From: Cellulomonas sp. Y8
GTDB taxonomy: Bacteria > Actinomycetota > Actinomycetes > Actinomycetales > Cellulomonadaceae
Direction: 5' to 3'
Length of the DNA: 64,000 nt
NCBI RefSeq assembly: GCF_008033115.1
Contig: NZ_CP041203.1
Coordinates: forward strand, 2,728,001-2,792,000
How positions within the stretch are numbered: position 1 is the stretch's first letter; each line of letters opens with the position of its first letter. The notes beneath the pieces were generated by a model. The model was not told the origin of the DNA. It saw only the letters and a list, made by a program, of their open reading frames with translations, and ran no database searches. Made by a program: the position numbers and the translations under genes. Below are positions 35,653-54,838 of this stretch, in pieces.

Positions 35653-35678
35653 CTCAGGTCCGCTTCACCTGTGCCGAT
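35653..35678 (+). promoter_or_regulatory. FliA-type (sigma-28) promoter of EAL-HDOD gene
   Basis: CTCA at 35653-35656, 16 nt, GCCGAT at 35673-35678. Same spacing as four flagellar promoters in the window. The start codon is ~60 bp downstream. Confidence 0.75.
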
Positions 35679-35736
35679 GACAGGTCTCGACGCGCCCGTG
35701 GGCGGGCGCCCGCGCTCTCGAGCCGAAGGGACACGC

Positions 35737-37014
35737 ATGTCGATCACGGCGGGGCACCTGCCCCCGGCCACGCGCGAGGTGTGCGTCGCGCGCCAGGGCA
35801 TCTACGACGTGCTGAGCCGGCCCATCGGGCACGAGCTGCTGTTCCGGGCCAGCCCGGACGCCCTCGAGTCCGGCGTCCGGCCCGGGATCGACGACAACCG
35901 CGCCACCGCGACCGTCATCGTCGCGACGCTCACGGAGTTCGGCGTCGAGGACCTGGCGGGCAACGGCGACCTGTTCGTCAACGTCCCTCGGTCGTTCATC
36001 GTCGACGAGCTGCCGGTGGCGCTCGACCCGCACCGCGTCGTGCTGGAGGTCCTGGAGAAGGTCCCGGCCGACGAGGAGGTGGTCGCGGGCGTCGAGCGGC
36101 TGCGCCGGCTCGGGTTCGGCATCGCGCTCGACGACTTCGTGCCCGGGGACCAGCGCTGGGACCTGCTCCCGCTGTGCGACTACGTCAAGGTCGACATGTC
36201 CGACGTCGGCGACCGGCTCGCCGAGTTCGCCGACGAGCTGCGCGCGGTCGCCCCGCACGCCGCGCTCGTGGCGGAGCACGTCGAGGACGAGGCCGACTTC
36301 CTCGCCGCCCAGGACGCGGGCTTCGACCTGTTCCAGGGCTACCACTTCCGCCGGCCGACCGTGCTGACCCGGCCCGCGCTCGCGCACCACGCGATGGTCG
36401 CGGGCCGGCTGCTCGTGCAGCTGGGCGACCCGCAGGTGTCCTACCGCCGGCTGGCCCGGCTCACCGCCGCCGACCCGGCGATCGCGCTCAAGGTGTTCCG
36501 GGTCGTGAACTCCGTGTCCGGCGCCGGGCGCACCGTGCGCAACCTGCACCAGGCGCTGGTGCTGCTCGGGCGCGAGCGGTTCCGCGCGATGCTCGTGCTC
36601 GAGGTGCTCGCCACCGCGGGCCACCACGACGACGAGATCCCGCTCATGGCCCTCGCCCGCACCCGCGCCGCCGAGATCCTCGCGCCGCAGGACCCGCTGG
36701 AGGCGTCCACCGAGGCGCTGGTCCGCATCGTGTCCGAGCTGCTCGACGTGCCCGTGTCCGAGCTCGACCCCGAGCTGCACCGGTCCCAGCCGAGCGCCCG
36801 CGTGGTCGCGGCGTGCGACGTGCTCGACGCGTACCTGGACGCCATCGCGGAGGAGGCGGTGCCGTCGATCCGGTCGCCGTACTCCGCGCTGCACGTGTCG
36901 CTCGTCTACCTGACCGCGCTGCGCGAGGCGCGGGCCCTGCTCGCGACCGTCTACCAGCCCGTGCCGCGGCTGCAGGCCGTGCCGGGCGGGGTCCAGGACG
37001 TGGCGTTCGGCTGA
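35737..37014 (+). CDS. EAL-HDOD signalling protein (YuxH family)
   Basis: 425-residue protein: an EAL domain (about 15-210) and an HDOD domain (about 215-420). The EAL part keeps the usual catalytic positions: Glu in HELLFR, Asn in FVNVPRS, Glu in LEVLEK, the pair in ALDDF, Lys in VKVDM, Glu in AEHVE and FQGYHF. It might therefore hydrolyse cyclic di-GMP, although most YuxH relatives have not been shown to. HDOD is seen in RLARLTAADPAIALKVFRVVN. A FliA-type promoter puts it in the motility regulon, 8 kb from the flagellar locus. Start chosen at the ATG with GAAGGGA upstream. Confidence 0.88.
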   Translation: MSITAGHLPPATREVCVARQGIYDVLSRPIGHELLFRASPDALESGVRPGIDDNRATATVIVATLTEFGVEDLAGNGDLFVNVPRSFIVDELPVALDPHRVVLEVLEKVPADEEVVAGVERLRRLGFGIALDDFVPGDQRWDLLPLCDYVKVDMSDVGDRLAEFADELRAVAPHAALVAEHVEDEADFLAAQDAGFDLFQGYHFRRPTVLTRPALAHHAMVAGRLLVQLGDPQVSYRRLARLTAADPAIALKVFRVVNSVSGAGRTVRNLHQALVLLGRERFRAMLVLEVLATAGHHDDEIPLMALARTRAAEILAPQDPLEASTEALVRIVSELLDVPVSELDPELHRSQPSARVVAACDVLDAYLDAIAEEAVPSIRSPYSALHVSLVYLTALREARALLATVYQPVPRLQAVPGGVQDVAFG

Positions 37015-37086
37015 GCCGGGCGCGGCGGGGTCCCGGGAGGGGTTCGCCGGCCGCGGAGCGGCGCGCTGCGCGGGCGGTGCGACCGG

Positions 37087-37092
37087 TAGCCT
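37087..37092 (+). promoter_or_regulatory. -10 box (TAGCCT) of cold-shock-domain gene
   Basis: TAGCCT, 52 nt before the GTG at 37145, so this gene has a leader of ~45 nt, unlike the leaderless neighbours that use the same box. Confidence 0.45.
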
Positions 37093-37144
37093 GGTGACGT
37101 GCGGCGCGACGCCGCGCGAGTTCCGACGAGCACAGGGGATCGCA

Positions 37145-37528
37145 GTGCCCACCGGCAAGGTCAAGTGGTTCGACACCGATCGCGGCTTCGGCTTCATCGC
37201 CGCCGACGACGGCACCGAGGTGTTCCTGCACGCGTCCGCGCTGCCCGCGGGGATCGGCACGCCCAAGCCCGGCACCCGGGTGGACTTCGGCGTGGCCGAC
37301 GGCCGCCGCGGCCCGCAGGCGCTCGCGGTCAAGCTGCTCGACCCGGTGCCCTCGGTCGCCGCGGTCCAGCGCAAGCCGGCCGACGACATGGCCGTCATCG
37401 TCGAGGACCTGATCAAGGTGCTCGACCGGGTCGGCAACGACCTGCGCCGCGGCCGCCGCCCGGAGAAGTCCCGCGCCGAGCAGGTCGCCACCCTGCTGCG
37501 CGCCGTCGCCGACGACCTCGAGGCCTGA
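37145..37528 (+). CDS. Cold-shock-domain protein with C-terminal extension
   Basis: 127-residue protein: a cold-shock domain (residues 1-65; VKWFDTDRGFGFIAADDGTEVFLH) with an altered second RNP motif (VFLHA for VFVHF), then a helical, basic extension (~60 residues, LRRGRRPEKSRAEQVATLLR). Extended CSD proteins are typical of actinobacteria and probably bind RNA or DNA. GTG start with AGGGGA ~8 bp upstream. It begins a short cluster with DUF3027 and the ATPase. Confidence 0.9.
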   Translation: MPTGKVKWFDTDRGFGFIAADDGTEVFLHASALPAGIGTPKPGTRVDFGVADGRRGPQALAVKLLDPVPSVAAVQRKPADDMAVIVEDLIKVLDRVGNDLRRGRRPEKSRAEQVATLLRAVADDLEA

Positions 37529-37530
37529 GC

Positions 37531-38403
37531 ATGGCGACCGCGACCCAGGACGCCGTGCTCGGCGGCGCCGTCGACCTCGCCCGCGAGGCCGCCCTCGAGC
37601 TGGCCGAGCACCCCCAGGACGTCGGCGAGCACCTCGGCTGGACCGTGGACGCGGACCGGCTCGTCTCGCACCGGTTCGCCTGCACCGCCAAGGGCTACCG
37701 CGGCTGGGTGTGGACCGTGACGCTGTCCCGGGTGCCGCGCGCCCGGAAGGCGACCGTCTGCGAGGCCGTGCTGCTGCCCGGCGACGACGCCGTCCTCGCG
37801 CCCGCCTGGGTGCCGTGGGACGAGCGGCTGCGCCCGGGCGACCTCGGCCCCGGCGACGTGCTGCCGTTCCGCGCGGACGACCCGCGCCTGGAGCCCGGCT
37901 TCACCCCGACCGGGGACCCCGAGGTCGACGAGGTCGCGATCGGCGAGCTCGCGCTGGCCCGCAACCGGGTGCTGTCGCCCGTGGGGATCTCCGAGGCCGC
38001 CGAGCGCTGGTACCGCTCGAAGCAGGGCCCGGCGTCCGCCGGCGCCGTCGCGTCCGCCGAGCCGTGCATGACCTGCGGGTTCCTGGTGCCCCTGCAGGGC
38101 GCGCTGGGCACCGTGTTCGGCGTGTGCGTCAACGCGTGGTCCCCGGACGACGGCAAGGTCGTCGCGCTGGAGCACGGCTGCGGCGCGCACTCCGAGACCG
38201 ACGTCGAGCCGCGGCCGTCCGAGTGGCCGGACGTGCCGGTCGCGCGGGAGCTGGACGTGCTGCCGACCGCCGAGGTCGTCGGGTCCGGGGCGGTCGACGC
38301 GCCGGCGCAGGACGCGCCGGTCGCGGAGGTGGCCGAGGACGAGGTCGCGACCGACGACGCGGCGCAGGACGCGCCGCCCGCGGAGGACGAGCCCCGGTCG
38401 TGA
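37531..38403 (+). CDS. DUF3027 family protein
   Basis: 290-residue actinobacterial protein of unknown function. The core GYRGWVWTVTLSRVPRARKATVCE matches the family, and the CMTCGFLVPLQGALGTVFGVC block with later HGCGAHSE provides four Cys and two His that could bind zinc. The last ~60 residues are acidic and low-order. ATG starts 2 bp after the CSD stop; its stop overlaps the next start by GTGA. Thus CSD, DUF3027 and the ATPase are co-expressed. Confidence 0.9.
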   Translation: MATATQDAVLGGAVDLAREAALELAEHPQDVGEHLGWTVDADRLVSHRFACTAKGYRGWVWTVTLSRVPRARKATVCEAVLLPGDDAVLAPAWVPWDERLRPGDLGPGDVLPFRADDPRLEPGFTPTGDPEVDEVAIGELALARNRVLSPVGISEAAERWYRSKQGPASAGAVASAEPCMTCGFLVPLQGALGTVFGVCVNAWSPDDGKVVALEHGCGAHSETDVEPRPSEWPDVPVARELDVLPTAEVVGSGAVDAPAQDAPVAEVAEDEVATDDAAQDAPPAEDEPRS

Positions 38404-41400
38404 CCGGCGACGTCTTCGGCACGCGCGCGCTGCGCGAGCGGGTGCTGGGGACGTGGCGCGCCGACCCGGCGCGCCTGCGCGAGGACGCGAACACCGAGGA
38501 GGACCACGCCCGCGGCTACTACCGCGACCGGGTGGTGGTCGAGCTCGCGCAGAACGCCGCCGACGCCGCGGTGCGCGCGGGGACGCCGGGGCGGCTGCTG
38601 CTGCGGCTGACGACGGCGGGCGCCGCGGAGGCGGGCGGCGACGGCCCGGGCGTCGCCGGGGGCGGCGCGGCGGCGCCGGGTGGCGCGGTCCTGGTCGCGG
38701 CGAACACCGGCGCCCCGCTGGACGCCGCCGGCGTGCACTCGATGGCGGCCATGCGCGCCTCGGCGAGCCGGGACTGGCCCGGCCACGACGGCGCCGGGGC
38801 CGGCGGCCCGGGCCTGGTCGGCCGGTTCGGCGTCGGCTTCGCGGCCGTGCGGGCGGTGTCGGACGACGTCCGGGTGCTGTCCACGTCCGGCGCGGTGCGG
38901 TTCTCGCTCGACGACACCCGCCGGGACCTCGCGCTCGCCGCCGGGGACGAGCCGCGGCTGGCCGACGAGGTCGCCCGCCGCGAGGGGTCGCTGCCCGCGC
39001 TCCGGCTGCCCCGGGAGGACGAGGGACGCCCGCCGGGCGGGTACGACACCGCCGTGGTGCTCGCGCTGCGCGACGACGCGGCGGTGGACGCCGTGCGGTC
39101 GATGCTCGCCCAGGTCGGCGACGCGCTGCTGCTGGCGCTGCCGGGGCTGACGGAGGTGGTGGTCGAGGACGACCTCGCCGGCCACCGCCGCCGGGTCGCC
39201 GACGTCGACCGCCGCTGGCGGCGCCTCACCGTCGAGGGCGAGCTCGACCCCGCGCTGGTCGCGGACCGCCCCGTCGAGGAGCGGTCCCGCCGCCGCTGGC
39301 GCGTGACGTGGGCGCTGCCGGTCCGCGGCGACGGGCCCGACGACCGCACCGGGGCCGCCGGGGACCTGTTCGCCGCGCTCACCGGGGCTGCCGGCGGCGA
39401 GGCGGCCTGGGCGCGGGTGCTGCACGCGCCCACGCCCACCGACGACGCCCTCGACCTGCCGGCGCTGCTCGTCGCGACCGTCCCGCTCGACCCGACCCGG
39501 CGGCGCGCCGCCCGCGGCCCCGCGACCGACGCGCTGCTCGACGTCGCCGCCGAGGCGTACGCCCGGCTCGCCGCCGCGTGCGCCGTCGACGGCGACGACG
39601 CCCTGCGGCTGGTCCCGCTCGGGCTGCCGGCGGGCGACCTGGACGCCGCGCTGCGGGGGCGGCTGGTCGAGGCGCTGTCCCGCACGCCGCTGCTGCCGCC
39701 CGCGCACGCCGCCGCCCCCGCCGGAGGCGCCCCGGCCGACGACGTGCCGGACCCCGACCGCGGGGACGACCGAGCGGCCCCGGACGACGACCGCCCTGCC
39801 GCGCCGGACGCCGCCGACCTCGTCGAGCCGCACCGCGCCGTCGCGCTCGCCGGCCCGCACGCGCCCGAGCTGACCCGCGCCCTCGCCCCGTGGTTCGCCG
39901 GCCTCGTCGTGCTGCCCGAGGGCCGCCTCGCCGCGGCCCGCGCCCTGGGCGTCGAGGTCCGGGAGGCCGCCGAGTACGTCGAGGAGCTGCCCGCCGCCTC
40001 CGGCCTGCCGCCCGCGCGGTGGCGCGCCCTGTACGCCGCGCTCGCCCCGGCCGCGGGCGACCCGCTCGCGCGCGAGGCCCTCGCGGCGCTGCCGGTCCCG
40101 CTGGCCGACGGCCGGGTGGTCCGGGGCGCCCGTGGCCTGCTGCTCCCGGTGGCGGGGGCGCTCGACGCCGCGGGCCCGGTGGCCGGCGCGCTGGCAGTCC
40201 TCGGCCGGTGGGGCGTGCGCCTGGTGCACCCGGCCGCCGCCCACGAGGTGCTGGAGCGGCTCGGTGCGGCGCCCGCCGACCCCGCGGCGCTGCTCGCGCA
40301 CCCCGGCGTGCGGCAGGCCGTGCTCGACCAGGCCGACGAGGACGACGTCGCCGTGGCGGAGCAGGTCAGCGACGCGGTGCTCGCGCTGGTGCACGCGGCC
40401 GTGGCGGACGGGTCGGTCGCGCCGGACGGCGAGCCGGTCGCGCCCGGGCGGGCCGTCCTCGGGCTGCTCACCCTGCGCGCGGCGGACGACGAGCCGACGC
40501 CCGCGCACGGCCTGGTGCTGCCGGGCTCGCGCGCCGAGCGGCTGCTCGACCCGCGCGTGCTGGCCCCGGTCGCCGCGGACGCCGTCGAGCGGTGGGGCGC
40601 CGACGTCCTCGCCGCCGCGGGCGTCCGCGCGGACCTGGTGCCGCTGCTGCTCACCGACGTCGCGGCGGCGCCGGACGACCCGTACGCAGACGACGACGCC
40701 GACCTGGTCACCGAGGCCCTGGACGGCTGGGACGCCTGGATCGCCGAGGTCGCCGCGGTCGTCGGGGAGGGGGAGACGCTGCCCGAGGTCCTGGCGGTCG
40801 CCGACCTCGACGCCACGGACCCGGGCGCCTGGCCCGCCGTGCTCGCCCGGCTCGCCGAGCCCGGGCCGCTGCGCCGCGCGCTGCTCGACGAGGTGCGCGG
40901 CCCCGCCGGGCGCCGCGCCCCCGGGTACACCGCGTGGTGGCTGCGGCACCGGTCCGGGCTGCCGCTGGCGGCGCGGTTCGCGGTCGACGGGGCGGAGCCC
41001 GCGGTCGCCCGGCTGCTGCCGCCGCCGCCCGCGGAGGTCTCCGGGCTCGACCCCGCCGCGCAGGCGGCGCTGGGCGGTGTCACGACCCTGGCCGCGGTCC
41101 CGCCGGGCGCATGGGACGCGCTGCTGCGGGCCGCCGCGCCGGTGGGCGGGCGCGTCGACCTCGACCTCGCCGCGGCGGTGTGGTCCGCCTGGGCCGGGCT
41201 CGCGGCCGCGGACGCCGACGCGGACGCGCTGCCCGACCTCGACGTGCTGCCCGCCCTCGTCGCGCCCGACCGGGTCGTCCTGGTGCACGCGGAGGACGCC
41301 GCCGTCGCCCCGGCGCCGATGTGGTGGCAGCGCACCGACGTCGCCGCGATGGTGCCGGTGACCGGTCCGGCGGACCCGGAGGACCTGGCCGAGCTGCTCG

Positions 41401-41765
41401 GCGTCCCCGTGGCGGGCGACCTCGCGGACGGCGTCGTCGACGAGCGGGACGGCGACGACGCCGGCACCCTGTCCGCGACCCCCGACGCGGTGCGGGTGCT
41501 GCTGCCCGGGGCGCCGGACACCTGGATCGAGCACGAGCAGCTGCGGGTGGACGGCGTCCCGGTCGACTGGTGGGTGGACGGCTCCGGGCCGGACGCGATC
41601 GTGCACGCCACCCACCTGGCCGGCCTCGCGCGCGGGCTGGCGCAGGCGTGCGGCGCGTGGCGGCTCCGGCACGCCGCCGAGCTCGCCCTGGTGGAGCCGG
41701 CGCGGGCCGCCGAGCTCGCCGTGGAGCAGGTCGCCGACGACGGGGGCATGATGGACGGCCGATGA
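38400..41765 (+). CDS. Sacsin-like GHKL ATPase, large
   Basis: 1121-residue protein. Near residues 35-50, DRVVVELAQNAADAA is an N-box of the Hsp90/histidine-kinase (GHKL) ATPase fold; GLVGRFGVGFAAVRAV near residue 140 is the Gly-rich lid loop. Both match the N-terminal domain of sacsin-type proteins. The rest is a long repetitive Ala/Asp/Leu-rich body with no further known domain, ending shortly after WLRHAAELAL-like helices. Probably a chaperone- or signalling-like ATPase. GTG start overlaps DUF3027, and it overlaps the MFS gene by ATGA. Confidence 0.8.
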   Translation: MTGDVFGTRALRERVLGTWRADPARLREDANTEEDHARGYYRDRVVVELAQNAADAAVRAGTPGRLLLRLTTAGAAEAGGDGPGVAGGGAAAPGGAVLVAANTGAPLDAAGVHSMAAMRASASRDWPGHDGAGAGGPGLVGRFGVGFAAVRAVSDDVRVLSTSGAVRFSLDDTRRDLALAAGDEPRLADEVARREGSLPALRLPREDEGRPPGGYDTAVVLALRDDAAVDAVRSMLAQVGDALLLALPGLTEVVVEDDLAGHRRRVADVDRRWRRLTVEGELDPALVADRPVEERSRRRWRVTWALPVRGDGPDDRTGAAGDLFAALTGAAGGEAAWARVLHAPTPTDDALDLPALLVATVPLDPTRRRAARGPATDALLDVAAEAYARLAAACAVDGDDALRLVPLGLPAGDLDAALRGRLVEALSRTPLLPPAHAAAPAGGAPADDVPDPDRGDDRAAPDDDRPAAPDAADLVEPHRAVALAGPHAPELTRALAPWFAGLVVLPEGRLAAARALGVEVREAAEYVEELPAASGLPPARWRALYAALAPAAGDPLAREALAALPVPLADGRVVRGARGLLLPVAGALDAAGPVAGALAVLGRWGVRLVHPAAAHEVLERLGAAPADPAALLAHPGVRQAVLDQADEDDVAVAEQVSDAVLALVHAAVADGSVAPDGEPVAPGRAVLGLLTLRAADDEPTPAHGLVLPGSRAERLLDPRVLAPVAADAVERWGADVLAAAGVRADLVPLLLTDVAAAPDDPYADDDADLVTEALDGWDAWIAEVAAVVGEGETLPEVLAVADLDATDPGAWPAVLARLAEPGPLRRALLDEVRGPAGRRAPGYTAWWLRHRSGLPLAARFAVDGAEPAVARLLPPPPAEVSGLDPAAQAALGGVTTLAAVPPGAWDALLRAAAPVGGRVDLDLAAAVWSAWAGLAAADADADALPDLDVLPALVAPDRVVLVHAEDAAVAPAPMWWQRTDVAAMVPVTGPADPEDLAELLGVPVAGDLADGVVDERDGDDAGTLSATPDAVRVLLPGAPDTWIEHEQLRVDGVPVDWWVDGSGPDAIVHATHLAGLARGLAQACGAWRLRHAAELALVEPARAAELAVEQVADDGGMMDGR

Positions 41766-43006: not shown

Positions 43007-43068
43007 ACGTCGCTACCGCGGCCCGGGTGGGGACGTCGAGTGTCCGCTCGGCGGAGGAGGTGCCGGGT

Positions 43069-43311: not shown

Positions 43312-43318
43312 GGCCACC

Positions 43319-43324
43319 ACCCTA
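43319..43324 (-). promoter_or_regulatory. -10 box (TAGGGT), leaderless promoter
   Basis: TAGGGT on the minus strand, 7 nt before the GTG at 43311. Confidence 0.5.
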
Positions 43325-43354: not shown

Positions 43355-44605
43355 TTACTCGCCGAAGGCGAGGGCCGTCGCCGTCGCCAGGGCGCTCGGG
43401 ACCGCGGCGAGGTACGCGTGCGCGACGTCCCACGGCTCCAGGCCGGTGGCCGCGACGGCCGCGGTGTCGTTCTCCTCGTGCGCGAGCACGGCGGCCAGCA
43501 CCTGGCCCAGCCGGCCCTCGCGCCGCAGCAGCGCCGAGCTCAGCGCGTCGGAGACGCCCGTGCGCGCGACGAGCTCGGTGAGGTCGATGCCCTGCTGGGC
43601 GGCGACCGCGGACAGCAGTCCGACGGTGTACCCGGCGTCGTCCGCGGCGATCGTGTGGCAGGTCATGGCGCGGGTCAGGATCGACCACAGCGTGCCGACC
43701 GAGGCGGGCTTGGCGTCGATGAGCGACGCGATGGCGAGCGCGTGCAGCTGCCGCGGGCCGACCAGGACGACGGCCTGCAGCACCGAGTCGATCTCGCGCC
43801 GCAGCCCGAACGCCGAGGAGTTCACCAGGTGCAGCACCCGCATGGACAGCTCGGGGTCGGAGGCGACGGTGCGCACGACGGTCTGCTGGTCGACCTGCTC
43901 CTCGGACAGCACGCGCAGCAGCTCGAGGCACTGCAGCTCGCCCGCGGAGAACGACCGGCGGGTGACCGGGGGGTCGCGGTGGAACATCGGGCCCTGGAGC
44001 AGGTCGGCGCCGATGGACTGGGCGATCTCGAGCCGCTCGGTGGTGTCGGTGTGCTCGGCGACGACCGTCGCGCCGGCGGCGTGCGCGCGGGCGACCAGCT
44101 CGGCGCAGTGGTCGGCGCCGCGCTGCAGGTCGACCTTGACGATCTGCACCCGGTCCAGGAGCCGGTCCTGGGCGAGGGAGCCGTCGTAGTCGGCGAGCGC
44201 GAGCCGGCTGCCGCGGGCCGTGGCGGCGGCGAGCAGCTCGTCGACGTCGGGGCGCCGGGCGAGCGACGGGGTGATCTCGAGCATCAGCCGGTCGGCGTCG
44301 TACCAGACGGCCGCGGTGCCCGACAGCAGCCCGGCGGTCGCGCGGAGCAGCACGGGCTTGTCGCCCGCGAGGCCGGTCAGGTCGAGGCGCCGGTAGGCGG
44401 CCTCGACGGCCACCTCGGTGCTCTCGTCCGGCAGCGACGCGCCGGTCGGCCCGCTGACCAGGACCCGCACGGCGTAGCCGTACACGGAGCGGTCGTGGTG
44501 CACGACCGGCTGCCGCAGCACGGTGGTCTCGCCGCCGCCGATGGGGATCGGGCTGCCGCTCGCGGCGCGCGGGGACCCGGCGTCGGCACCGAGGGTCGAG
44601 GTCAT
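43355..44605 (-). CDS. EAL-HDOD signalling protein, degenerate EAL
   Basis: 416-residue protein with the same two domains as the gene at 35737. Its EAL part has lost key residues: VYGYAVRVL in place of the EAL motif, LLRATAGLL lacking the Asn, and LADYDGS where DDF should be. VKVDLQ and AEHTDT remain. It probably binds rather than cuts cyclic di-GMP, or neither. The HDOD domain is intact (TVVRTVASDPELSMRVLHLVN). It is the last gene of the flgN-flgK-flgL-fliW arm. Start at the ATG with GGAG 6 bp upstream; a GTG one codon earlier is also possible. Confidence 0.85.
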   Translation of the reverse strand: MTSTLGADAGSPRAASGSPIPIGGGETTVLRQPVVHHDRSVYGYAVRVLVSGPTGASLPDESTEVAVEAAYRRLDLTGLAGDKPVLLRATAGLLSGTAAVWYDADRLMLEITPSLARRPDVDELLAAATARGSRLALADYDGSLAQDRLLDRVQIVKVDLQRGADHCAELVARAHAAGATVVAEHTDTTERLEIAQSIGADLLQGPMFHRDPPVTRRSFSAGELQCLELLRVLSEEQVDQQTVVRTVASDPELSMRVLHLVNSSAFGLRREIDSVLQAVVLVGPRQLHALAIASLIDAKPASVGTLWSILTRAMTCHTIAADDAGYTVGLLSAVAAQQGIDLTELVARTGVSDALSSALLRREGRLGQVLAAVLAHEENDTAAVAATGLEPWDVAHAYLAAVPSALATATALAFGE

Positions 44606-44636: not shown

Positions 44637-45062
44637 TCAGGCGGCCGGCGCGAGCGGTGCCCGCAGCGGCCAGTCCTCGGTGAGGACGGTCTGCACGGCG
44701 GCGCCCGTCACCGGGTCGACGACGAGGGGGGCCAGCAGGTTCGCGGTGGGCGGCTCGCCGCCGTCGGCCGGGCGCACGACGACCAGGCGCACGGCGTGCT
44801 CGCGGTCGGCGCCGATCGCGGCGAGGACGTCGCCGGCGATCGCCGGGGCGTACTCGGGGAAGAACGCGTCGGGGTCGACGACGAACAGCCGGACCGGGCG
44901 GGCGCCCGCGGGCTCGGCGCGCAGCGCGTACAGGACGCCGACGTCGTCCAGCGGGGTGAGCGTGAAGTCCTCGTACCCCGCGAGGCCCGGCATGGGCGCG
45001 CGCAGGTGGAGGTGCTCGGGCAGGTGGGTGCGACGCGGGGCGTCGGCGAGCTCAGCGGTCAT
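44637..45062 (-). CDS. fliW: Flagellar assembly factor FliW
   Basis: 141-residue FliW, the protein that binds flagellin and antagonises CsrA. Recognised by GLAGYEDFTLTPLDDVGVLYALRA, LFVVDPDAFFPEYAPAI and the TANLLAPLVVDPVTG segment. The ATG overlaps the flgL stop by ATGA. No csrA gene follows, as it does in many genomes; only an EAL-HDOD gene. Confidence 0.93.
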   Translation of the reverse strand: MTAELADAPRRTHLPEHLHLRAPMPGLAGYEDFTLTPLDDVGVLYALRAEPAGARPVRLFVVDPDAFFPEYAPAIAGDVLAAIGADREHAVRLVVVRPADGGEPPTANLLAPLVVDPVTGAAVQTVLTEDWPLRAPLAPAA

Positions 45063-47409: not shown

Positions 47410-47458
47410 CGGGTCCTCTTCCTCGGGTGTCTCAGGTCGGGTGGCCTAGGCGGCCGGG

Positions 47459-47944: not shown

Positions 47945-48025
47945 CGGGCGTTCCCCCTTCGAAGCAGCGGTGGTGCGGTCGGGACGCCCGGCTCGGGGTG
48001 CCGGCCGCGGCGTGATGCCTCTCCT

Positions 48026-48051
48026 ATCGGGACGGGGCGGGGGGTCCTGAG
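48026..48051 (-). promoter_or_regulatory. FliA-type (sigma-28) promoter of flgN arm
   Basis: On the minus strand CTCA (48051-48048), 16 nt, CCCGAT (48031-48026). Drives flgN-flgK-flgL-fliW-EAL/HDOD. Confidence 0.78.
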
Positions 48052-48103
48052 CGAAACCGGACACCTCGTGGTCACCCGCGCGTCGCCGCCCCGGCGGGCC
48101 GGG

Positions 48104-48132
48104 TTGAACCGACTGGTCAGTCCGTGTATCTG
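48104..48132 (+). promoter_or_regulatory. Possible sigma-70 promoter
   Basis: TTGAAC (48104-48109), 17 nt, TATCTG (48127-48132). Reasonable match for a housekeeping promoter toward fliA, but the CRP box would then lie downstream of the start. Confidence 0.3.
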
Positions 48133-48153
48133 ACAGGACAGCGATGTCCAGAG

Positions 48154-48169
48154 TGTGACGTGTGTCACA
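48154..48169. promoter_or_regulatory. CRP/GlxR-type operator
   Basis: TGTGA, 6 nt, TCACA: a perfect match to the CRP/GlxR consensus. If fliA uses the CTATGT/TATGTC box at about 48191-48197 as -10, the site would be centred near -41.5, the class II activator position. Confidence 0.72.
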
Positions 48170-48320
48170 ACTCCTCATCTGTGGCCGGAACTATGTCGGC
48201 GGATGTCCGATTTGTCTTTCCGGTACGTCCGAAATGGCCGCGGAAGTCGCATAGATCGGGTCCTCAGGAACTTCAGAACAAAGGCTCAAGCCGGGTTTCA
48301 CCCCCGCCGAGAACCGGTTC

Positions 48321-49196
48321 GTGAACAGCTCTGCAGCCACCCCCGCCGCCGACGACCTCGTCGTCGCGCACATGCCGATCGTGGGGTACCACGTGAGCGA
48401 GGTCCTCTCCCGGGTCCCCGCCACCGTCAGCCGGGAGGACCTCGTGTCCGCCGGCCACCTCGCGCTGGTGCTCGCCGCCCGCGCGTACGACCCGGAGACG
48501 GGCGTCCCCTTCCCCCGGTACGCCGCGCTGCGCATCCGCGGCGCGCTGATCGACGAGCTGCGCTCGATGGACTGGGCGTCCCGCGGCGCCCGGCACCGCG
48601 CCCGCGAGCTGTCCGCGGCGAGCGACCGCCTCACCGCGACGCTGGGCCGGACCCCGACCCGCGAGGAGCTGGCGAGCGCGCTGGGCACCGACCTCGCCGC
48701 GGTGGACCAGGCCCGCCAGGACGCCGAGCGCCGCGTGCTGTCGATGGACGCCACCGTGCACCCGGTCGCGGACCTCGTCCGCGACGAGGCGCCCGGCCCG
48801 GAGGACAACGTGATCATCGGCGAGCGGCTGCGCTACCTGCGCGCCGCGGTCGACACGCTGCCCGACCGGCTGCGCACCGTCATCGAGGGCCTGTTCCTGC
48901 AGGACCGGTCGGTCGCGGAGCTGGCCGACGAGCTGGGCGTCACCCAGTCCCGGATCAGCCAGCTGCGCACCGAGGGCCTGGCCCTGATGCGCGACGGGCT
49001 GAACGCCAGCCTCGACCCCGAGCTGGTCCCGGTCGCCGAGCGCCCGGACGGTGTCGCCGAGCGTCGCCGCCGGACCTACTTCGCCGCGGTCGCCTCGCGC
49101 GCCGCCATGACCGCCGCCGGCCACCGCGCCGAGGAGGCCCGGACCGTCCCGACGCCGTTCGAGGGCTCCGACCGCATCACCACCGCCGCGGTCTGA
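48321..49196 (+). CDS. fliA: Flagellar sigma factor FliA (sigma-28)
   Basis: 291-residue RNA polymerase sigma factor. Region 2 is seen as EDLVSAGHLALVLAARAYDP, PFPRYAALRIRGALIDELR; region 3 as GRTPTREELASALG; region 4 as LPDRLRTVIEGLFLQDRSV, AELADELGVTQSRISQLRTEG. Ile-Arg-Gly-Ala and Asp-Glu-Leu-Arg pattern is of the FliA/WhiG class. A ~40-residue tail follows region 4. GTG start after a GAGAACCGGTTC stretch; ribosome site weak. Expected to read the CTCA-N16-SCCGAT promoters in this window. Confidence 0.93.
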   Translation: MNSSAATPAADDLVVAHMPIVGYHVSEVLSRVPATVSREDLVSAGHLALVLAARAYDPETGVPFPRYAALRIRGALIDELRSMDWASRGARHRARELSAASDRLTATLGRTPTREELASALGTDLAAVDQARQDAERRVLSMDATVHPVADLVRDEAPGPEDNVIIGERLRYLRAAVDTLPDRLRTVIEGLFLQDRSVAELADELGVTQSRISQLRTEGLALMRDGLNASLDPELVPVAERPDGVAERRRRTYFAAVASRAAMTAAGHRAEEARTVPTPFEGSDRITTAAV

Positions 49197-49253
49197 GACC
49201 GCCCGCGCGCCGGGCCGCCGGCGCGCAGCAGCAGCAGCACGTTCACGCACGCC

Positions 49254-49290
49254 CGAGGGCGCCGTCCGCAGCACGCGGGCGGCGCCCTCG
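49254..49290 (+). terminator. fliA terminator
   Basis: Perfect 11-bp stem (49254-49264 with 49280-49290), 15-nt loop, ~60 bp after the fliA stop and before the next FliA promoter. Confidence 0.78.
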
Positions 49291-49334
49291 TCGCGTCCGG
49301 GGACCGCCGGGGCCGGGCGTGCCCCGTCCGAACG

Positions 49335-49360
49335 CTCAGGAGCCGCGTGACGGCGCCGAT
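49335..49360 (+). promoter_or_regulatory. FliA-type (sigma-28) promoter of glycosyltransferase
   Basis: CTCA at 49335-49338, 16 nt, GCCGAT at 49355-49360, 33 bp before the ATG. Confidence 0.78.
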
Positions 49361-49392
49361 CGGCAGGGCAGTCACCCGACCGGAGGAACGTC

Positions 49393-50946
49393 ATGCCTGC
49401 ACGCCCCACCGTCTCCGCCGTCCTCATCGTCAAGGACGAGGAGGCCGTGCTGGACGAGTGCCTCGCGTCCGTCGCCTGGGCCGACGAGGTCGTCGTCTAC
49501 GACACCGGCTCCTCGGACCGCACCGTCGAGATCGCCCGGCGGCACACCGGCGTCGTCGTCGAGGGCTACTGGGACGACGACTTCGGCGCCGCGCGCAACC
49601 GCGCGCTCGCGCACGCGACCGGCGACTGGGTGCTCTCCGTCGACGCGGACGAGGTGGTGACGGGCGACGCCGAGGCGTTCCGCGCCGCGCTCGGCCGGGA
49701 CGGCGGGGTGGCGCACACCGTGCTGATCCGGAACCTGGCCGCGGGCCCCGCGCTGCCGCTCGGCCTGGGCGCGGCGGACACCGTGCTGGCCGGGTCCCGC
49801 GTGTTCCGGCGCGACCTGCACGCCTGGGCGGGCCGACTGCACGAGCAGCCCGTGCTGCTCGCGACGGGGCGCCCCGCCGACGTCCAGCGCCCCGCCGCCG
49901 GCATCGAGCTGCGGCACAGCGGCTACCGGCCTGACGTCGTCGCGGAGAAGGACAAGGGTGCCCGGAACGTCGAGCTCGCCCGCGCGCAGGTCGCCGCGGC
50001 GCGGGAGGCCGGCGACGCCGTCGCGCTCGAGCTGCACCGGGTCGACCTCGCGCGCTCGCTGCAGATGTCCGGGGACCACGCCGGTGCCCTGGCAGAGGCG
50101 GACGCGCTGCGCGCCGCGGGATTCGCCTCCCCGCGCAACGCGGTGCTCCTCGCGCGGTCGGTCTACCTGGCCGGTGTCGTGCTGGGCGACGACGCTGCCG
50201 CGGACCGCTGGCTCGGCGTCTGGGAGGCGAACGACGACAACCCGGCGTTCGCGCTCGCGACCCGCGCGCAGGTGCTGGCGGAGCGCGGGGACGCCGTCGG
50301 CGCGCTCGCCGCGCTCGAGCGGATCCCGACCACCACGGTCAACGGCCACGGCGAACGGGTCGACCGGGCGACTCTGGTGACGACCGAGCTGTGGGCGCGC
50401 ACGGTCACGGGTGACCGCCGGCGCGCGGTCCTCGCGGCGCTGCACGCGATCCGGCGCGGCGTCGCCCCGGGCGCGGCCGGGGGGCTGGTGCGCGTGCTCA
50501 CCCCGGACGAGTGCCGGTGCCTGCTGGCCGAGATGCCCGACGCGATGTGGCGGCAGTACGTGACATGGTGCGCCATGGACGCGACCGCCGAGGCCCGCAC
50601 ATTCCTCGGCTGGATGCAGGAGGTGCGGCCCGGCGACGCCGCCGTGGCGGCCGGCGCGGCGCACCTCGCGCCGACCATGCCGCTCGAGGAGGCGGCCGAG
50701 TGGTCCGCGGACCTGCGCGGCGCCGGCCGGGCCGAGGCGTGCCCGCTGGTGCTGATCGCGGCCGACCCGCAGGGGGACCCGCGCCAGCGCGCGCTGGCCG
50801 GCGCCCTGGCGTACAGCGCCTACGGCGACGAGCGCGGCCTCGCGGGCCTGGAGGACGCCCTCGCGCACGTGCGTGCCGAGGACGAGGCGGAGCTGCTGGC
50901 GGAGCTGCAGATCGTGGCCCCCGGCCTGGTCGGCGCCGCCGCCTGA
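49393..50946 (+). CDS. Family 2 glycosyltransferase (likely flagellin-modifying)
   Basis: 517-residue GT-A enzyme. N-terminus VSAVLIVKDEEAVLDECLAS with DEVVVYDTGSSDRT binds the nucleotide sugar; VLSVDADEVV holds the metal-binding DxD. After residue ~190 comes a TPR-like helical part (ALELHRVDLARSLQMSGDHA, ALAEADALRAAG). The arrangement resembles SunS/WaaE-type GT2 proteins with a C-terminal protein-binding half. Between fliA and fliC and under a FliA promoter, it most likely glycosylates flagellin; that role is inferred from context. Confidence 0.88.
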   Translation: MPARPTVSAVLIVKDEEAVLDECLASVAWADEVVVYDTGSSDRTVEIARRHTGVVVEGYWDDDFGAARNRALAHATGDWVLSVDADEVVTGDAEAFRAALGRDGGVAHTVLIRNLAAGPALPLGLGAADTVLAGSRVFRRDLHAWAGRLHEQPVLLATGRPADVQRPAAGIELRHSGYRPDVVAEKDKGARNVELARAQVAAAREAGDAVALELHRVDLARSLQMSGDHAGALAEADALRAAGFASPRNAVLLARSVYLAGVVLGDDAAADRWLGVWEANDDNPAFALATRAQVLAERGDAVGALAALERIPTTTVNGHGERVDRATLVTTELWARTVTGDRRRAVLAALHAIRRGVAPGAAGGLVRVLTPDECRCLLAEMPDAMWRQYVTWCAMDATAEARTFLGWMQEVRPGDAAVAAGAAHLAPTMPLEEAAEWSADLRGAGRAEACPLVLIAADPQGDPRQRALAGALAYSAYGDERGLAGLEDALAHVRAEDEAELLAELQIVAPGLVGAAA

Positions 50947-50974
50947 CGAACTTCGGATCCGTCGCGGAAAACTT

Positions 50975-51000
50975 CTCAGAGGTCCCGGCGGGCATCCGAT
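50975..51000 (+). promoter_or_regulatory. FliA-type (sigma-28) promoter of fliC
   Basis: CTCA at 50975-50978, 16 nt, TCCGAT at 50995-51000, 60 bp before the ATG. T instead of G/C at the first box position is the only change. Confidence 0.8.
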
Positions 51001-51059
51001 GACCAGGGTGTGCCCACGGACGGGCCGCCCCTGAGCCCACTCACGGAGGAAGAACCATC

Positions 51060-52235
51060 ATGGCTCTCTCGATCAACCAGAACATCGCGGCGCTGAACTC
51101 GTACCGCAACCTGTCCAACACGCAGAACGACCTGAGCAAGTCGCTCGAGAAGCTGTCGAGCGGCCTGCGCATCAACCGCGCGGCGGACGACGCTGCTGGT
51201 CTGGCGATCTCCGAGGGCCTGCGTGCCCAGATCGGCGGCACCAAGCAGGCCGTGCGCAACGCCCAGGACGGCATCTCCGTCGTCCAGACCGCTGAGGGCG
51301 CGCTCACCGAGACGCACTCGATCCTGCAGCGCATGCGGACCCTGTCCGTGCAGGCGGCGAACGACGGTGGCCTCTCCGAGACCGCCAAGGGCAACATCCA
51401 GGACGAGATGGACCAGCTCAAGACCGAGCTGACCCGCATCTCCGACACCACGCAGTTCAACGGCACCAAGCTGCTGGACGGCAACTACTCGGGCACGTTC
51501 CAGGTCGGCGCCAACACGTCCGACCAGGACAAGATCACCGTCGACCTCAAGCGCACCGGCGGCCTGTCCGCCACGGGCCTGGACGTCAACGGCATCGACG
51601 TGACCGCTGTCGCGACGGACGCGAGCTCGGCCGTCGTGACCAACGCGGTCGTCGGCACCGCCGGCTCGGTCGCCGTCACGGCCGACCCGACCGACCTGGA
51701 GGCCCTGAAGGCGCTGAACGGCACCGTGACGGTCGGCTCCAAGTCCTTCGACCTGGCCTCGGTGGACTACACCGGCGTCACGGACGCGGCCGGTGCGCTG
51801 ACGAAGATCACCGCCGCGGCGGCCAAGGTGTTCGGCACCTCGGTCACGGTGGCGGCCGCCGGCACCACCGGCGTCTCCTTCACGGGCCAGACCCCGGCCA
51901 CCGGGGCCACGGCCTCCGAGGTCGCGGCGGCGTCCCCGGTCTTCAGCCAGAAGTCCGGTGCGACCGAGGCCATCCAGAAGATCGACGCGGCCATCACCGA
52001 CGTGTCGAAGGTGCGTTCGCAGCTCGGTGCGGTCCAGAACCGCTTCGACCACACCATCAACAACCTCAACGTGGCGGTCGAGAACCTGACCTCCTCGGAG
52101 AGCCGGATCCGCGACACCGACATGGCGTCCGAGATGGTCTCGTTCACCCGGGCGCAGATCCTCTCGCAGGCCGGCACGGCGATGCTCGCGCAGGCCAAGT
52201 CGATCCCGCAGAGCGTGCTCCAGCTCCTCCAGTGA
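51060..52235 (+). CDS. fliC: Flagellin
   Basis: 391-residue filament protein. Conserved N-terminal D0/D1 (SINQNIAALNSYRNLSNTQN, LEKLSSGLRINRAADDAAGL) and C-terminal D1/D0 (LNVAVENLTSSESRIRDTDM, AQAKSIPQSVLQLLQ). The variable centre is short and Thr/Ala/Val-rich (about residues 170-300), with many Ser/Thr open to O-glycosylation. Excellent ribosome site (GGAGGAAG). A FliA promoter and a stem-loop bracket it as a single transcript. Confidence 0.98.
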   Translation: MALSINQNIAALNSYRNLSNTQNDLSKSLEKLSSGLRINRAADDAAGLAISEGLRAQIGGTKQAVRNAQDGISVVQTAEGALTETHSILQRMRTLSVQAANDGGLSETAKGNIQDEMDQLKTELTRISDTTQFNGTKLLDGNYSGTFQVGANTSDQDKITVDLKRTGGLSATGLDVNGIDVTAVATDASSAVVTNAVVGTAGSVAVTADPTDLEALKALNGTVTVGSKSFDLASVDYTGVTDAAGALTKITAAAAKVFGTSVTVAAAGTTGVSFTGQTPATGATASEVAAASPVFSQKSGATEAIQKIDAAITDVSKVRSQLGAVQNRFDHTINNLNVAVENLTSSESRIRDTDMASEMVSFTRAQILSQAGTAMLAQAKSIPQSVLQLLQ

Positions 52236-52247
52236 GCCGTCCGGCTC

Positions 52248-52280
52248 CGGCCCGTCCACCCTCGCGGTGAGCGGGCCGGG
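52248..52280 (+). terminator. fliC terminator hairpin
   Basis: CCGGCCCG (52248-52255) pairs with CGGGCCGG (52273-52280); the loop can fold further (CCACC with GGTG). It starts 12 bp after the stop. Confidence 0.7.
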
Positions 52281-52429
52281 GTCGGCGTCCCGCCGAGGGC
52301 GCACGTGAAGCAGGACCAGCACGACCGACCCGGGCGGTGGTGGACGCACCGTCCACCGCCGCCCGCGTCGCATCTCGGCCCCGATCCCCGGGGCACCCGC
52401 AGGACCCCGCACCAGGAGGACACCCCCCG

Positions 52430-53785
52430 ATGGCCGGCATCACCTTCAGCACCGGGCTGATCAGCAACTTCCCCACGGCAGACCTGATCGACTCCACCAT
52501 CGCGCTGGAGGCCAACCAGCAGACGCTGCTCTCGAAGAAGAAGAGCACGCTGTCGTCGCAGTCCACCGCGCTGCAGGCCCTCAACACCAAGGTCGCGTCG
52601 CTGACCGCCGCCGCCAAGGCCGCGGCGACCGCCTCGTCCTGGGAGGCCGTCAAGGCGAAGTCCTCCGCCGAGTCGGTCACCGCGACCACCACCTCCGACG
52701 CCCGCCCGTCGAGCGTCTCGTTCCGGGTCGACTCGGTCGCGGCGTCGCAGTCGACGCTGTACACGCTGCCGACGGCCTACTCCTCGGACACCCCGACCTT
52801 CACGCTGACCGGTGCCGACGGCGAGACCGTCTCGGTCAAGGCGCTGAGCAGCAACATCGGCGACATCGTCGCCGCCTTCAACGCCGAGGGCACCGGCGTC
52901 AAGGCGTCCGCCCTCAACGTCGGCACCGCCGCCGCGCCGGAGTACCGGCTGCAGCTGACCGGGACCGAGACGGGCAAGGGGAACACCTTCAGCATGACGG
53001 TGGACAACGCCGGGTCGGACACGACGTTCGAGGAGAAGACGATCCGCCCCGCCTCGGATGCCGAGATCGTCCTGTGGCCCGGCAGCGGCGCCGAGCAGAA
53101 GGTGAAGTCGTCCAAGAACGTCTTCGAGAACCTCGTCACCGGCGTCAACGTCACGGTGACCGCCAAGACGACCGACCCGGTGACCGTCGACGTGACCCGG
53201 GACGACTCCAAGCTGTCCGCGCTCGCGCAGGCACTGGTGAACAACCTCAACGCCGTGCTGGGCGACATCACGTCCTACACGACCAGCAAGACCGGGACGA
53301 ACGACGAGGGCACCGCGATCGTCACCGCGGGTCTGTTCTCCGGGAACGCGACGGTGCGCGCCCTGCAGCAGTCGCTGCTGGCCGCCGGGTCGAACTCCGC
53401 GAGCAACACCTCGCTGGCCGGCATCGGCATCTCGCTCGGCAAGGACGGCACCTTCGCGTTCGACGCCACCGTGTTCCAGACGGCGCTCACGAACGACCCC
53501 GACGCGGTGAGCAAGGCCGTGCAGGGTGTCGCCGGCTCGCTGCAGAAGATCGGCGAGGTCGCGTCCGACTCCGCCAAGGGCACGCTGACCCTGCAGGTCC
53601 AGAGCTACGACAGCGAGGTCAAGGACCTCACCGACCGCATCGCCGACTGGGACATCCGGCTGGAGGCGCGACGCGCCTCGCTGACCCAGATGTACGCGGC
53701 GATGGAGGTCCAGCTGTCGAACCTGAACTCCCAGTCCGACTACCTGACCACCCAGCTGAAGCAGCTCTCGGGCTCCTCCGACTGA
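52430..53785 (+). CDS. fliD: Flagellar filament cap protein FliD
   Basis: 451-residue HAP2. N-terminal ISNFPTADLIDSTIALEANQ, SSQSTALQALNTKVASLTAA is the FliD_N coiled part; the C-terminal helix region (QSYDSEVKDLTDRIADWDIR, LEARRASLTQMYAAMEVQLS) is FliD_C. It caps the filament for flagellin folding. Strong AGGAGG ribosome site. First gene of fliD-fliS-fliT-like; no FliA motif was found just upstream. Confidence 0.95.
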   Translation: MAGITFSTGLISNFPTADLIDSTIALEANQQTLLSKKKSTLSSQSTALQALNTKVASLTAAAKAAATASSWEAVKAKSSAESVTATTTSDARPSSVSFRVDSVAASQSTLYTLPTAYSSDTPTFTLTGADGETVSVKALSSNIGDIVAAFNAEGTGVKASALNVGTAAAPEYRLQLTGTETGKGNTFSMTVDNAGSDTTFEEKTIRPASDAEIVLWPGSGAEQKVKSSKNVFENLVTGVNVTVTAKTTDPVTVDVTRDDSKLSALAQALVNNLNAVLGDITSYTTSKTGTNDEGTAIVTAGLFSGNATVRALQQSLLAAGSNSASNTSLAGIGISLGKDGTFAFDATVFQTALTNDPDAVSKAVQGVAGSLQKIGEVASDSAKGTLTLQVQSYDSEVKDLTDRIADWDIRLEARRASLTQMYAAMEVQLSNLNSQSDYLTTQLKQLSGSSD

Positions 53786-53810
53786 CCCGAGCCCTGCAGG
53801 AAGGACCGCC

Positions 53811-54254
53811 GTGTACGACGCCCGGACCCGGTTCCTCGCCGACGCGGTCGCGACCGCGGGACCGGCGAAGCTCCTCACCATGCTGTACGACCGGCTGCTG
53901 CTCGATCTGGAGCGCGCGGAGGTCGCGCTCCGCGCGGGCGACCGCGCCACGGGGACGCAGCAGCTGGCCCACGCGCAGGAGATCGTCGCGGAGTTCATCG
54001 CGAACCTGAACGTGGCCGAGTGGGAGGGCGGCGACCGGCTGCTCTCGGTCTACACGTTCCTGCTCTCCGAGATGATCGGCGCGAGCATGGCCGGCGACGC
54101 CGACCGCGCCGCCGCGTGCCGCGGCCTGGTCGCGCCGCTGGCCGACGCCTGGCGCGAGGCCGCGCTCACGGTCGCGAACGACGTCCCGACGCAGCGTCGC
54201 GCCCCCGCCTTCGACACGGCCGAGACCGGCACCGGGGTGCTCGGTGTCGGCTGA
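53811..54254 (+). CDS. fliS: Flagellin chaperone FliS
   Basis: 147-residue helical chaperone that keeps flagellin unfolded for export. The family pattern is present: GPAKLLTMLYDRLLLDLERA, then AHAQEIVAEFIANLN and VYTFLLSEMIGASMAGD. GTG start after GGAAGGA. It overlaps the following gene by 11 bp. Confidence 0.94.
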   Translation: MYDARTRFLADAVATAGPAKLLTMLYDRLLLDLERAEVALRAGDRATGTQQLAHAQEIVAEFIANLNVAEWEGGDRLLSVYTFLLSEMIGASMAGDADRAAACRGLVAPLADAWREAALTVANDVPTQRRAPAFDTAETGTGVLGVG

Positions 54255-54687
54255 CACGGCGGTCGCGCCCGTCGAGCGCAGCACCGCCGGGACCGCCCTC
54301 GACGCCGACGGCCGGTCCGCGCAGCACGCGGCCGACCGCGAGGCGCCCGACCCCGGACGCGCCGGCCGCGAGGCCGCCTGGGTGGCGGCGCTCGCCGAGA
54401 TGGAGCTCGAGGCCGAGCGCGCCGAGGTCCTGCTGGCCGGCGCCCAGAGCGCGGAGGCCCCCACGGAGGCCGACGTCGCCCTCACCGCGCCCTGGCGCAC
54501 CCCCCGCGGGCTCGGCCCGCTGCCCGTCGCGCTCGCGCCGCGGGCCGCCGCGCTGGTCGAGCGCCAGCGCGACCTCGTGCGCCGGACCGCCGACCAGCTC
54601 GCCGAGCACCGCCGCCGGCTGCGCACCGCCGACGGGCTGCGCACGCGCCCGGCCCCGGCCCCGGCCTACCTCGACGTCGAGGGCTGA
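54244..54687 (+). CDS. FliT-position hypothetical flagellar protein
   Basis: 147-residue protein with no sure family. It is helical with Ala/Arg/Glu-rich stretches (AAWVAALAEMELEAERAEVL; LVERQRDLVRRTADQLAEHR) and a Pro-rich end. FliT chaperones are small helical proteins encoded just after fliS, so the position suggests a FliT-like role for FliD export. GTG start inside fliS (11-bp overlap) implies coupling. Confidence 0.62.
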   Translation: MSADTAVAPVERSTAGTALDADGRSAQHAADREAPDPGRAGREAAWVAALAEMELEAERAEVLLAGAQSAEAPTEADVALTAPWRTPRGLGPLPVALAPRAAALVERQRDLVRRTADQLAEHRRRLRTADGLRTRPAPAPAYLDVEG

Positions 54688-54702
54688 GACCGGCCCGCGG
54701 GC

Positions 54703-54718
54703 CTGGGTGCCAGCACCC
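54703..54718. promoter_or_regulatory. Palindrome CTGGGTGCCAGCACCC, copy 2
   Basis: Second exact copy of the 16-mer at 8370; with one more base it becomes TGGGTG-CCAG-CACCCA (54704-54719). It lies 16 bp after the FliT-like stop and ~95 bp upstream of the flgB promoter. A small hairpin (GCCGGA-CATTC-TCCGGC, 54728-54744) follows. Terminator or operator, undecided. Confidence 0.5.
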
Positions 54719-54812
54719 ACAAAGGCCGCCGGACATTCTCCGGCAAATTCGGACAACCCGTTCGAATCGCGTCCGCCGCGCGAGTGATCCGCGACATTTC
54801 TCGGGCGCACGC

Positions 54813-54838
54813 CTCAGCACGACCCGCGCCCCGCCGAT
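54813..54838 (+). promoter_or_regulatory. FliA-type (sigma-28) promoter of flgB operon
   Basis: CTCA at 54813-54816, 16 nt, GCCGAT at 54833-54838, ~80 bp before flgB. It may drive the whole basal-body operon. Confidence 0.78.

Follow-up and report, generated by a model that had tools for sequence, protein, structure and literature searches.

In the genome of Cellulomonas sp. Y8, a stretch of 64 kb (contig NZ_CP041203.1, positions 2,728,001 to 2,792,000; the whole stretch is called the window below) carries a flagellar gene cluster in which a two-part motif, CTCA followed after 16 nucleotides (nt) by BCCGAT (B is C, G or T), stands before several genes. Which factor reads this motif, and which genes does it tie together? 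A sequence-only reading had pointed out five copies, before flgN, a glycosyltransferase gene, fliC, flgB and an EAL-HDOD gene, and had proposed a regulon of the flagellar sigma factor FliA. Our results make it highly probable that the motif is the promoter of the FliA of this Cellulomonas and that the regulon has a single tier. The predicted regulon is wider than the five sites and includes the early genes flgB and fliM.

The motif as a probable FliA promoter

Exactly five exact matches to CTCA-N16-BCCGAT were present in the window, as claimed, against a mean of 0.27 and a maximum of 2 in 100 shuffles. All five were intergenic, with the end of the -10 box 33-83 nt 5' of the predicted start, and the fliC site had T at the first position of the second box, where the sequence-only reading had G or C at the others. 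When one mismatch was allowed, 14 matches were found in the window against 9.3 expected, which is near chance, and the signal was lost. Since the motif was first spotted by eye in this region, its own P value carries little weight, and independent evidence has to come from beyond the window and from other genomes.

The textbook spacing of the sigma-28 boxes is TAAA-N15-GCCGATAA. Written as C-TCAN-N15-GCCGAT, the motif CTCA-N16-GCCGAT brings TCAN into line with TAAA. Passages of PMC8325347 likewise give TAAA and GCCGATAA as the boxes of sigma-28/WhiG-type promoters. The spacer was 16 nt in 125 of 136 sites. Over 130 distinct sites, which were selected by score so that the base frequencies of both boxes are flattered, the -35 box was CTCA with C at its third base in 128, followed by any base (G 62, C 43, A 15, T 10); in the -10 box the second C and the G of CCGAT were invariant, A was found in 129, T in 128 and the first G in 101. 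The second box was thus the GCCGAT core of sigma-28, as had been proposed. The first was not TAAA; CTCAN stood in the same register, and no TAAA-N14-16-[GC]CCGAT site was found in the 113 kb around the cluster. The best reading of the motif is a sigma-28 (FliA) promoter whose -35 box, CTCAN, is in register with CTAAA.

Sites outside the window

The genome-wide scan covered the single 4.48 Mb contig, with genes predicted by a codon-usage script. It gave 33 exact matches, compared with 10 for the same pattern read backwards; 17 were inside predicted genes and 16 were intergenic. Eight of the intergenic matches lay in or near the flagellar cluster (before EAL-HDOD gene A, flgN, the glycosyltransferase gene, fliC, flgB, flbD, fliM and cheA), four preceded chemoreceptor genes elsewhere (genome places 245636, 2320169, 2439903 and 3623436), and one preceded a PAS-GGDEF gene (627134). 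The other three were doubtful: one stood 172 nt before a SpoIIE-type phosphatase gene, one 16 nt before the gene of an ABC sugar-binding protein, and one had no predicted gene downstream. The seven exact sites outside the window before flbD(-motA), fliM, cheA and four chemoreceptor genes compare with about 0.004-0.012 expected from the chance density for 21 such upstreams, which bears out the enrichment before mot and che genes that the sequence-only reading had named as a test, with chemoreceptor genes in addition.

For 14 of the 16 intergenic matches a start in the sense direction was predicted within 110 nt, which argues against the motif being the binding site of an activator or repressor and no promoter. 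The fixed spacing of the two boxes could fit a dimeric regulator, and direct support for such a site was not seen; moreover, the boxes are not repeats of each other and the second is the -10 core of sigma-28. We regard a regulator site as very unlikely.

The eight cluster sites alone served to train a matrix, with which the 250 nt in front of the genes of three families were scored. Ten of the 15 scorable chemoreceptor genes (of 16) had a site with a score of at least 11.2, all at -63 to -135; four of these ten sites were exact and the others had at least one change. In the TetR control (the 30 best of 41, with 29 scorable), a single upstream reached 11.2, far away at -225. The third family, GGDEF, is treated with the contrary evidence below. 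Within the cluster, a relaxed pattern added a periplasmic binding protein gene and cheB. As a separate observation, G009 and G015 have the site before the PAS-GGDEF gene (G000:C1 627134-627159) without a single change, which is odd for the spacer of a promoter.

Conservation in relatives

Conservation was scored in 56 stretches from 21 relatives, with predicted genes, reciprocal best hits as orthologues, the own genome excluded and a score of at least 11 counted as a site. The sites recurred at the heads of operons, namely flgN, fliC and flgB (Table 1), flbD (15/16), cheA (12/14) and fliM (11/16), in counts that are not independent because of close kinship (FliA was 90-97% identical in three relatives). 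They also recurred before the glycosyltransferase gene and EAL-HDOD gene A (Table 1), EAL-HDOD gene B (9/13), cheB (6/8) and chemoreceptor 2 (6/8); the counts were 3/4 for chemoreceptor 1, 3/5 for chemoreceptor 3 and 1/6 for the binding-protein gene. Genes internal to operons (such as flgL, fliD, flgC, fliE, fliF, fliG, motB and cheW) had a site in 0 to 2 orthologues, and the sequence-reversed control gave counts of 0 to 2 throughout. Orientation is no test in the relatives, where the scan covered sense upstreams only. The sites upstream of fliC persisted in other families of the order, where the identity of FliA falls to 39-59%. The stricter pattern CTCAG-N15-BCCGATR occurred 123 times against 59 for the control in 25 flagellin-bearing genomes (own included) and 27 times against 32 in 14 flagellin-less genomes (Fisher P 0.003 for the contrast).

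That the motif is a by-product of high G+C content and of picking by eye has a negligible probability. The share of exact matches inside genes and the chance level of the one-mismatch matches in the window would suit such an origin, but it does not account for the independent mot, che and chemoreceptor sites or for the conservation measured against reversed-sequence controls. Prediction and conservation, in the form of the exact sites outside the window and the recurrence at operon heads, both support the FliA regulon that had been proposed.

Several results weigh against it. The 17 intragenic matches are roughly what chance would give, and unless gene context is added the pattern by itself is unspecific as a predictor. 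On the sequence-only reading the motif should not occur as often inside genes; this expectation failed in part, for the bare pattern, but the sites at operon heads are upheld by gene context and conservation. Five of the 15 chemoreceptor upstreams were without a site, one of them belonging to a gene behind a binding-protein gene that has its own. Among the GGDEF genes (14 of 17 scorable), five had sites of at least 11.2, and only the PAS-GGDEF site was exact and well placed, with the others at -24 to -35. Five of the 21 fliC orthologues fell below 11: three keep CTCA with GTCGAA or GCCGAA, and in those of G005 and G036 the -35 box itself is altered. The six flgB orthologues without a site, and four of the five such fliM orthologues, all belong to other families of the order, so that good support for the control of early genes is confined to the genus. 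Finally, eight of the 11 fliM sites have positions of -26 to -36, nearer to the predicted start than elsewhere, which may be due to wrong start calls.

FliA and the WhiG-like sigma factor

The fliA product contained the Pfam sigma regions 2, 3 and 4 above their cut-offs, as in group 3 sigma factors, and its best match was the NCBIfam family FliA_WhiG, though under the cut-off (Table 1). The gene is located inside the flagellar cluster near fliC, and no other gene of the genome matches FliA better; the closest named FliA among the best 80 of 346 relatives was that of Cellulomonas sp. ACRRI (97% identical). A second sigma factor of the FliA/WhiG family, WhiG-like and with the His-type helix TESRISQMHTAAML, is encoded at G000:C1 504662-505459 (L406), and it is for this reason that we infer, from the evidence that follows, which of the two reads the sites.

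The same family and its presence in the genome make the paralogue a rival for the CTCA sites, alone or together with FliA, and some fliC leaders with CTCAA were found in phylum genomes in which only a His-type sigma factor was found (G114, G116 and G315). However, passages of PMC8325347 report that WhiG shares the TAAA/GCCGATAA specificity, a form absent around the cluster as described above. It is fliA, not the paralogue, that lies in the cluster near fliC, and six of ten other phylum genomes in which both types were seen carry the Arg-type gene no more than about 11 kb from fliC on the same contig. A role of the paralogue at these sites is therefore unlikely in our judgement. FliA remains the putative reader, and the transcript starts that its promoters imply are predictions.

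The recognition helix reads SQLRTE in this FliA, SQLHSQ in E. coli FliA and SQIHTK in WhiG. In a survey of named loci, the best 80 of 346 relatives with one sigma factor per locus, which is no census, the helix position was Arg in 52 (50 by script, L283 and L285 by reading) and His in 27, with one cut off. Arg-type loci came from Cellulomonadaceae, Demequina, Jonesia, Actinoplanes, Microbacterium and other Actinomycetia, and His-type loci from Acidimicrobiales, Thermoleophilia, other actinobacterial metagenome-assembled genomes (MAGs), Deltaproteobacteria and Nitrospina-type MAGs. The 32 named loci with fliC in reach were all of the Arg type; 27 had CT[CT]A-N15-17-NNCGA[TAG] upstream of fliC and none had TAAA.

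Across the phylum the picture was mixed. Among 12 genomes with an Arg helix and a fliC upstream, CTCA or TTCA was found in five (G121, G294, G198, G088 and G046), and the other seven had no credible box of either form (G144, G262, G076, G094, G122, G154 and G272). Where only the His type was found, TAAA or CTAAA stood in G041, G256 and two of the three leaders of G244, yet the remaining leader of G244 had CTCAA, like the three genomes named above. The box was TAAG in G328 and TAAT in G162, and G162 and G085 also hold an Arg helix lacking Glu. TAAA preceded fliC in G331 and G268, where the sigma search gave no match, and in G279, which was outside that search. Many distant families had neither box, and G254 (CTCAA) had a second, odd helix. 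Co-variation of helix and promoter was considered as the cause of CTCA and set aside, the correlation being soft and mixed in distant families; no cause is claimed, and the Arg for His change is only a lead to the change of the -35 box. The suggestion that CTCA is a GC-rich actinobacterial variant was supported, with one addition: an actinobacterial variant is backed by prediction and conservation, and G+C content is possibly not the whole reason, since the FliA helix also differs.

CTCA matches in Acidimicrobiales and Thermoleophilia loci mostly had near-identical spacers, looked by eye like conserved coding sequence and were left uncounted. FliA also has a C-terminal extension (the last ~60 codons) after the -35-reading helix, and an RRRxYFAAVAARAA-like stretch in it was kept in most aligned relatives.

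Proposed control without FlgM

The promoter before fliC and cheA also stands before flgB and fliM, so FliA should switch on early and late genes together. With early and late genes switched on together, a checkpoint based on FlgM export would make little sense, which fits the search for FlgM (PF04316): no match was found in 39 genomes, with matches in three of 14 control genomes (E. coli, B. subtilis and T. maritima), although the family is short and variable and a divergent member could escape the profile, a further point against the proposed reading. Passages of PMC4255298 and PMC10746217 make the same statement on the absence of FlgM in such lineages.

The motif was found upstream of fliA in 0 of 20 orthologues (score of at least 11), so fliA is probably switched on from above. 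A CRP/GlxR-type palindrome, TGTGA-N6-TCACA, is located upstream of fliA and is conserved in the genus (Table 1); the divergent flgN shares the region. In seven relatives from other families, the best palindrome before fliA had 2 to 4 mismatches, with the upstream unsure in two because of a truncated fliA start. The upstreams of fliC, cheA, flgB, fliM and flbD had no palindrome (best 2-5 mismatches). Genome-wide, TGTGA-N6-TCACA occurred at seven places and the reversed control at none. The genome has one strong and two weak matches to CRP-type genes above the cut-off, and the CRP-type protein scored 100.6 bits against the CRP model, under the curated cut-off of 266. Palindromic site and CRP-type protein are thus both present, binding is predicted, and a CRP/GlxR-type regulator is the most likely switch of fliA.

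A second control point is predicted in the fliC leader. Passages of PMC7652899 and PMC6529632 describe the consensus form of a CsrA site as GGA in a six-base loop, and report that in B. subtilis hag is repressed by CsrA via two leader sites and relieved by FliW. A GGA-loop hairpin was found 37-63 nt before the start in 57 of 57 fliC leaders (25 from 24 genomes, own included, and 32 from named loci, partly of the same organisms), together with a GGA in the last 25 nt. Over 46 distinct leaders, 99.5% of the cells of the four-pair stem were paired, a figure favoured by the anchoring of the leaders on GGA via the best stem; both-side changes (G-C to A-U, U-A or C-G), which are harder to obtain in this way, occurred in 11 cells against 0.8 in shuffles, and the covariation of 0.24 compares with 0.067 after shuffling and no more than 0.053 after sliding. 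Counted by stem pair, the both-side changes were not decisive (2 pairs against 0.7, with 53 of 500 shuffles reaching 2), the whole leader was no more stable than shuffles (z -0.53), and the hairpin of a single leader was often non-significant by shuffling (P 0 to 0.2). Two GGA hairpins were visible in the G025 leader. Both csrA (PF02599, 83.6 bits, L032:13029-13325) and fliW are in the cluster, and the fliC leader is a predicted CsrA target that FliW would relieve.

Features of the window and neighbouring genes

Table 1. Promoter sites, genes and predicted control elements in the window (orthologues: relatives with a site scoring at least 11)
Feature	Position	Strand	Evidence
FliA-type promoter of EAL-HDOD gene A (35737-37014)	35653..35678	+	Exact match; intergenic, -10 end 59 nt before start; 4/7 orthologues; EAL and HDOD Pfam
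fliW, CsrA antagonist by homology	44637..45062	-	PF02623, 65.1 bits
FliA-type promoter of flgN and the genes behind (flgK, flgL, fliW, EAL-HDOD B; 47944 down to 43355)	48026..48051	-	Exact match; 19/20 orthologues; Pfam
CRP/GlxR-type palindrome TGTGA-N6-TCACA upstream of fliA	48154..48169		14 genus members (own genome counted): 12 exact, 2 with one mismatch
fliA, sigma factor, -35-reading helix TQSRISQLRTEGL	48321..49196	+	TIGR02479 FliA_WhiG 166.3 bits (under curated cut-off 189.6); E. coli FliA 6pmi 106.9 bits; WhiG-type 6pfv 109.9 bits
FliA-type promoter of glycosyltransferase gene (49393-50946)	49335..49360	+	Exact match; 5/7 orthologues; Pfam
FliA-type promoter of fliC (51060-52235)	50975..51000	+	Exact match; 16/21 orthologues
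GGA-loop hairpin in fliC leader, predicted CsrA site	51012..51025	+	In predicted fold; covariation over 46 distinct leaders
Second GGA, inside fliC Shine-Dalgarno (CACGGAGG), predicted second CsrA site	51042..51049	+	Sequence; GGA in last 25 nt of 25/25 and 32/32 leaders
FliA-type promoter of flgB and downstream basal-body genes (54921 onward)	54813..54838	+	Exact match; 13/19 orthologues; TIGR01396 FlgB above cut-off

The gene names of the sequence-only reading agreed with Pfam and NCBIfam, the glycosyltransferase being of family 2. These searches named flgN, flgK, flgL, fliW and the second EAL-HDOD gene on the minus strand, fliA, the glycosyltransferase gene, fliC, fliD, fliS and flgB on the plus strand, and outside the window flbD, motA, motB, fliL, fliM, fliN, flhA, csrA, cheA, cheW, four chemoreceptor genes, cheB, cheR and cheX; some genes in between were named from gene order only. 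The spacing of flgN, flgK, flgL, fliW and EAL-HDOD gene B suggests one operon. The glycosyltransferase, judged from the place of its gene, probably acts on flagellin.

Both EAL-HDOD genes, A (35737-37014) and B (43355-44605), are tied to the regulon. Gene B lies behind fliW here, though it has its own site in most of the relatives counted above, and the site of G031 (L402) had no EAL-HDOD gene behind it. Passages of PMC8325347 list genes of cyclic di-GMP enzymes among the predicted targets of WhiG in Rubrobacter. An NlpC/P60 gene (60736-61998) lies between the genes taken as fliI and fliK and has an orthologue in 14 relatives; its product is a candidate wall hydrolase for the passage of the rod.

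Discussion

In the mechanism that we propose, RNA polymerase with FliA would read a -35 box CTCAN and a -10 box GCCGAT placed 16 nt after CTCA. It would transcribe the structural operons (flgB and following genes, fliM and following genes, flbD-motAB-fliL, flgN-flgKL-fliW, and fliC) and, in the same tier, cheA-cheW, cheB-cheR, most chemoreceptor genes, the neighbouring glycosyltransferase gene and the EAL-HDOD genes. Since no FlgM was found, the passage from hook to filament is probably controlled at the level of translation, where CsrA would act on the fliC leader until relieved by FliW; fliA itself would be set from above, most likely by the CRP/GlxR-type regulator. A wider proposal, to which we give slightly less than an even chance, is that motile unicellular actinobacteria such as Cellulomonas run the flagellum with a one-tier FliA regulon without FlgM. 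In it, fliA would be set by a CRP/GlxR-type regulator, early and late genes would both be transcribed by FliA at the same time, and assembly would be checked mainly by FliW-CsrA acting on the fliC leader; the divergence of the FliA helix from the WhiG helix (His to Arg, Lys/Gln to Glu) would let the two sigma factors coexist without cross-reading of promoters.

The predicted regulon offers named promoters, eight in or near the cluster, four exact ones before chemoreceptor genes elsewhere and more in the relaxed form, and the missing brake and the two candidate control points are directly testable. If the change in the helix alters the reading of the -35 box, it would illustrate the way in which promoters are kept apart between sigma paralogues of one clade. 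A treatment of FliA promoters of Cellulomonas was not found in the parts of the open-access literature that were searched.

The motif is real and, judged from the sequences, functional. The system is of a known kind, and what differs is the -35 box, the predicted flat hierarchy and two added predicted control points. The FliA-dependent promoters of Actinoplanes missouriensis (Jang 2016, Hashiguchi 2020) reportedly have a consensus near CTCA-N15-17-GCCGAA, whereas the -10 box here mostly ends in T and not in A. In eight Actinoplanes loci around fliA, no fliC was in reach and the motif occurred three times against one reversed, which leaves that consensus unconfirmed here.

The control of hag by CsrA and FliW in B. 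subtilis (in passages of PMC7652899 and PMC6529632) is alike in that fliW and csrA are present here too; it differs in that the control is known here from sequence only, in a lineage without detectable FlgM. The WhiG regulon of Streptomyces and Rubrobacter shares the sigma clade and the -10 core, but according to passages of PMC8325347 it has a -35 box TAAA, a His-type helix and a role in sporulation or, by prediction, in type IV pili.

The closest comparison is with the sigma-28 regulons of E. coli (FliA) and B. subtilis (SigD). Their targets are fliC, motA, che and chemoreceptor genes, and the sigma family, the -10 core GCCGAT and these targets are shared with Cellulomonas. Unlike those regulons, the one described here gave no match to FlgM, has CTCAN in place of TAAA, and places the same promoter before flgB and fliM as well.

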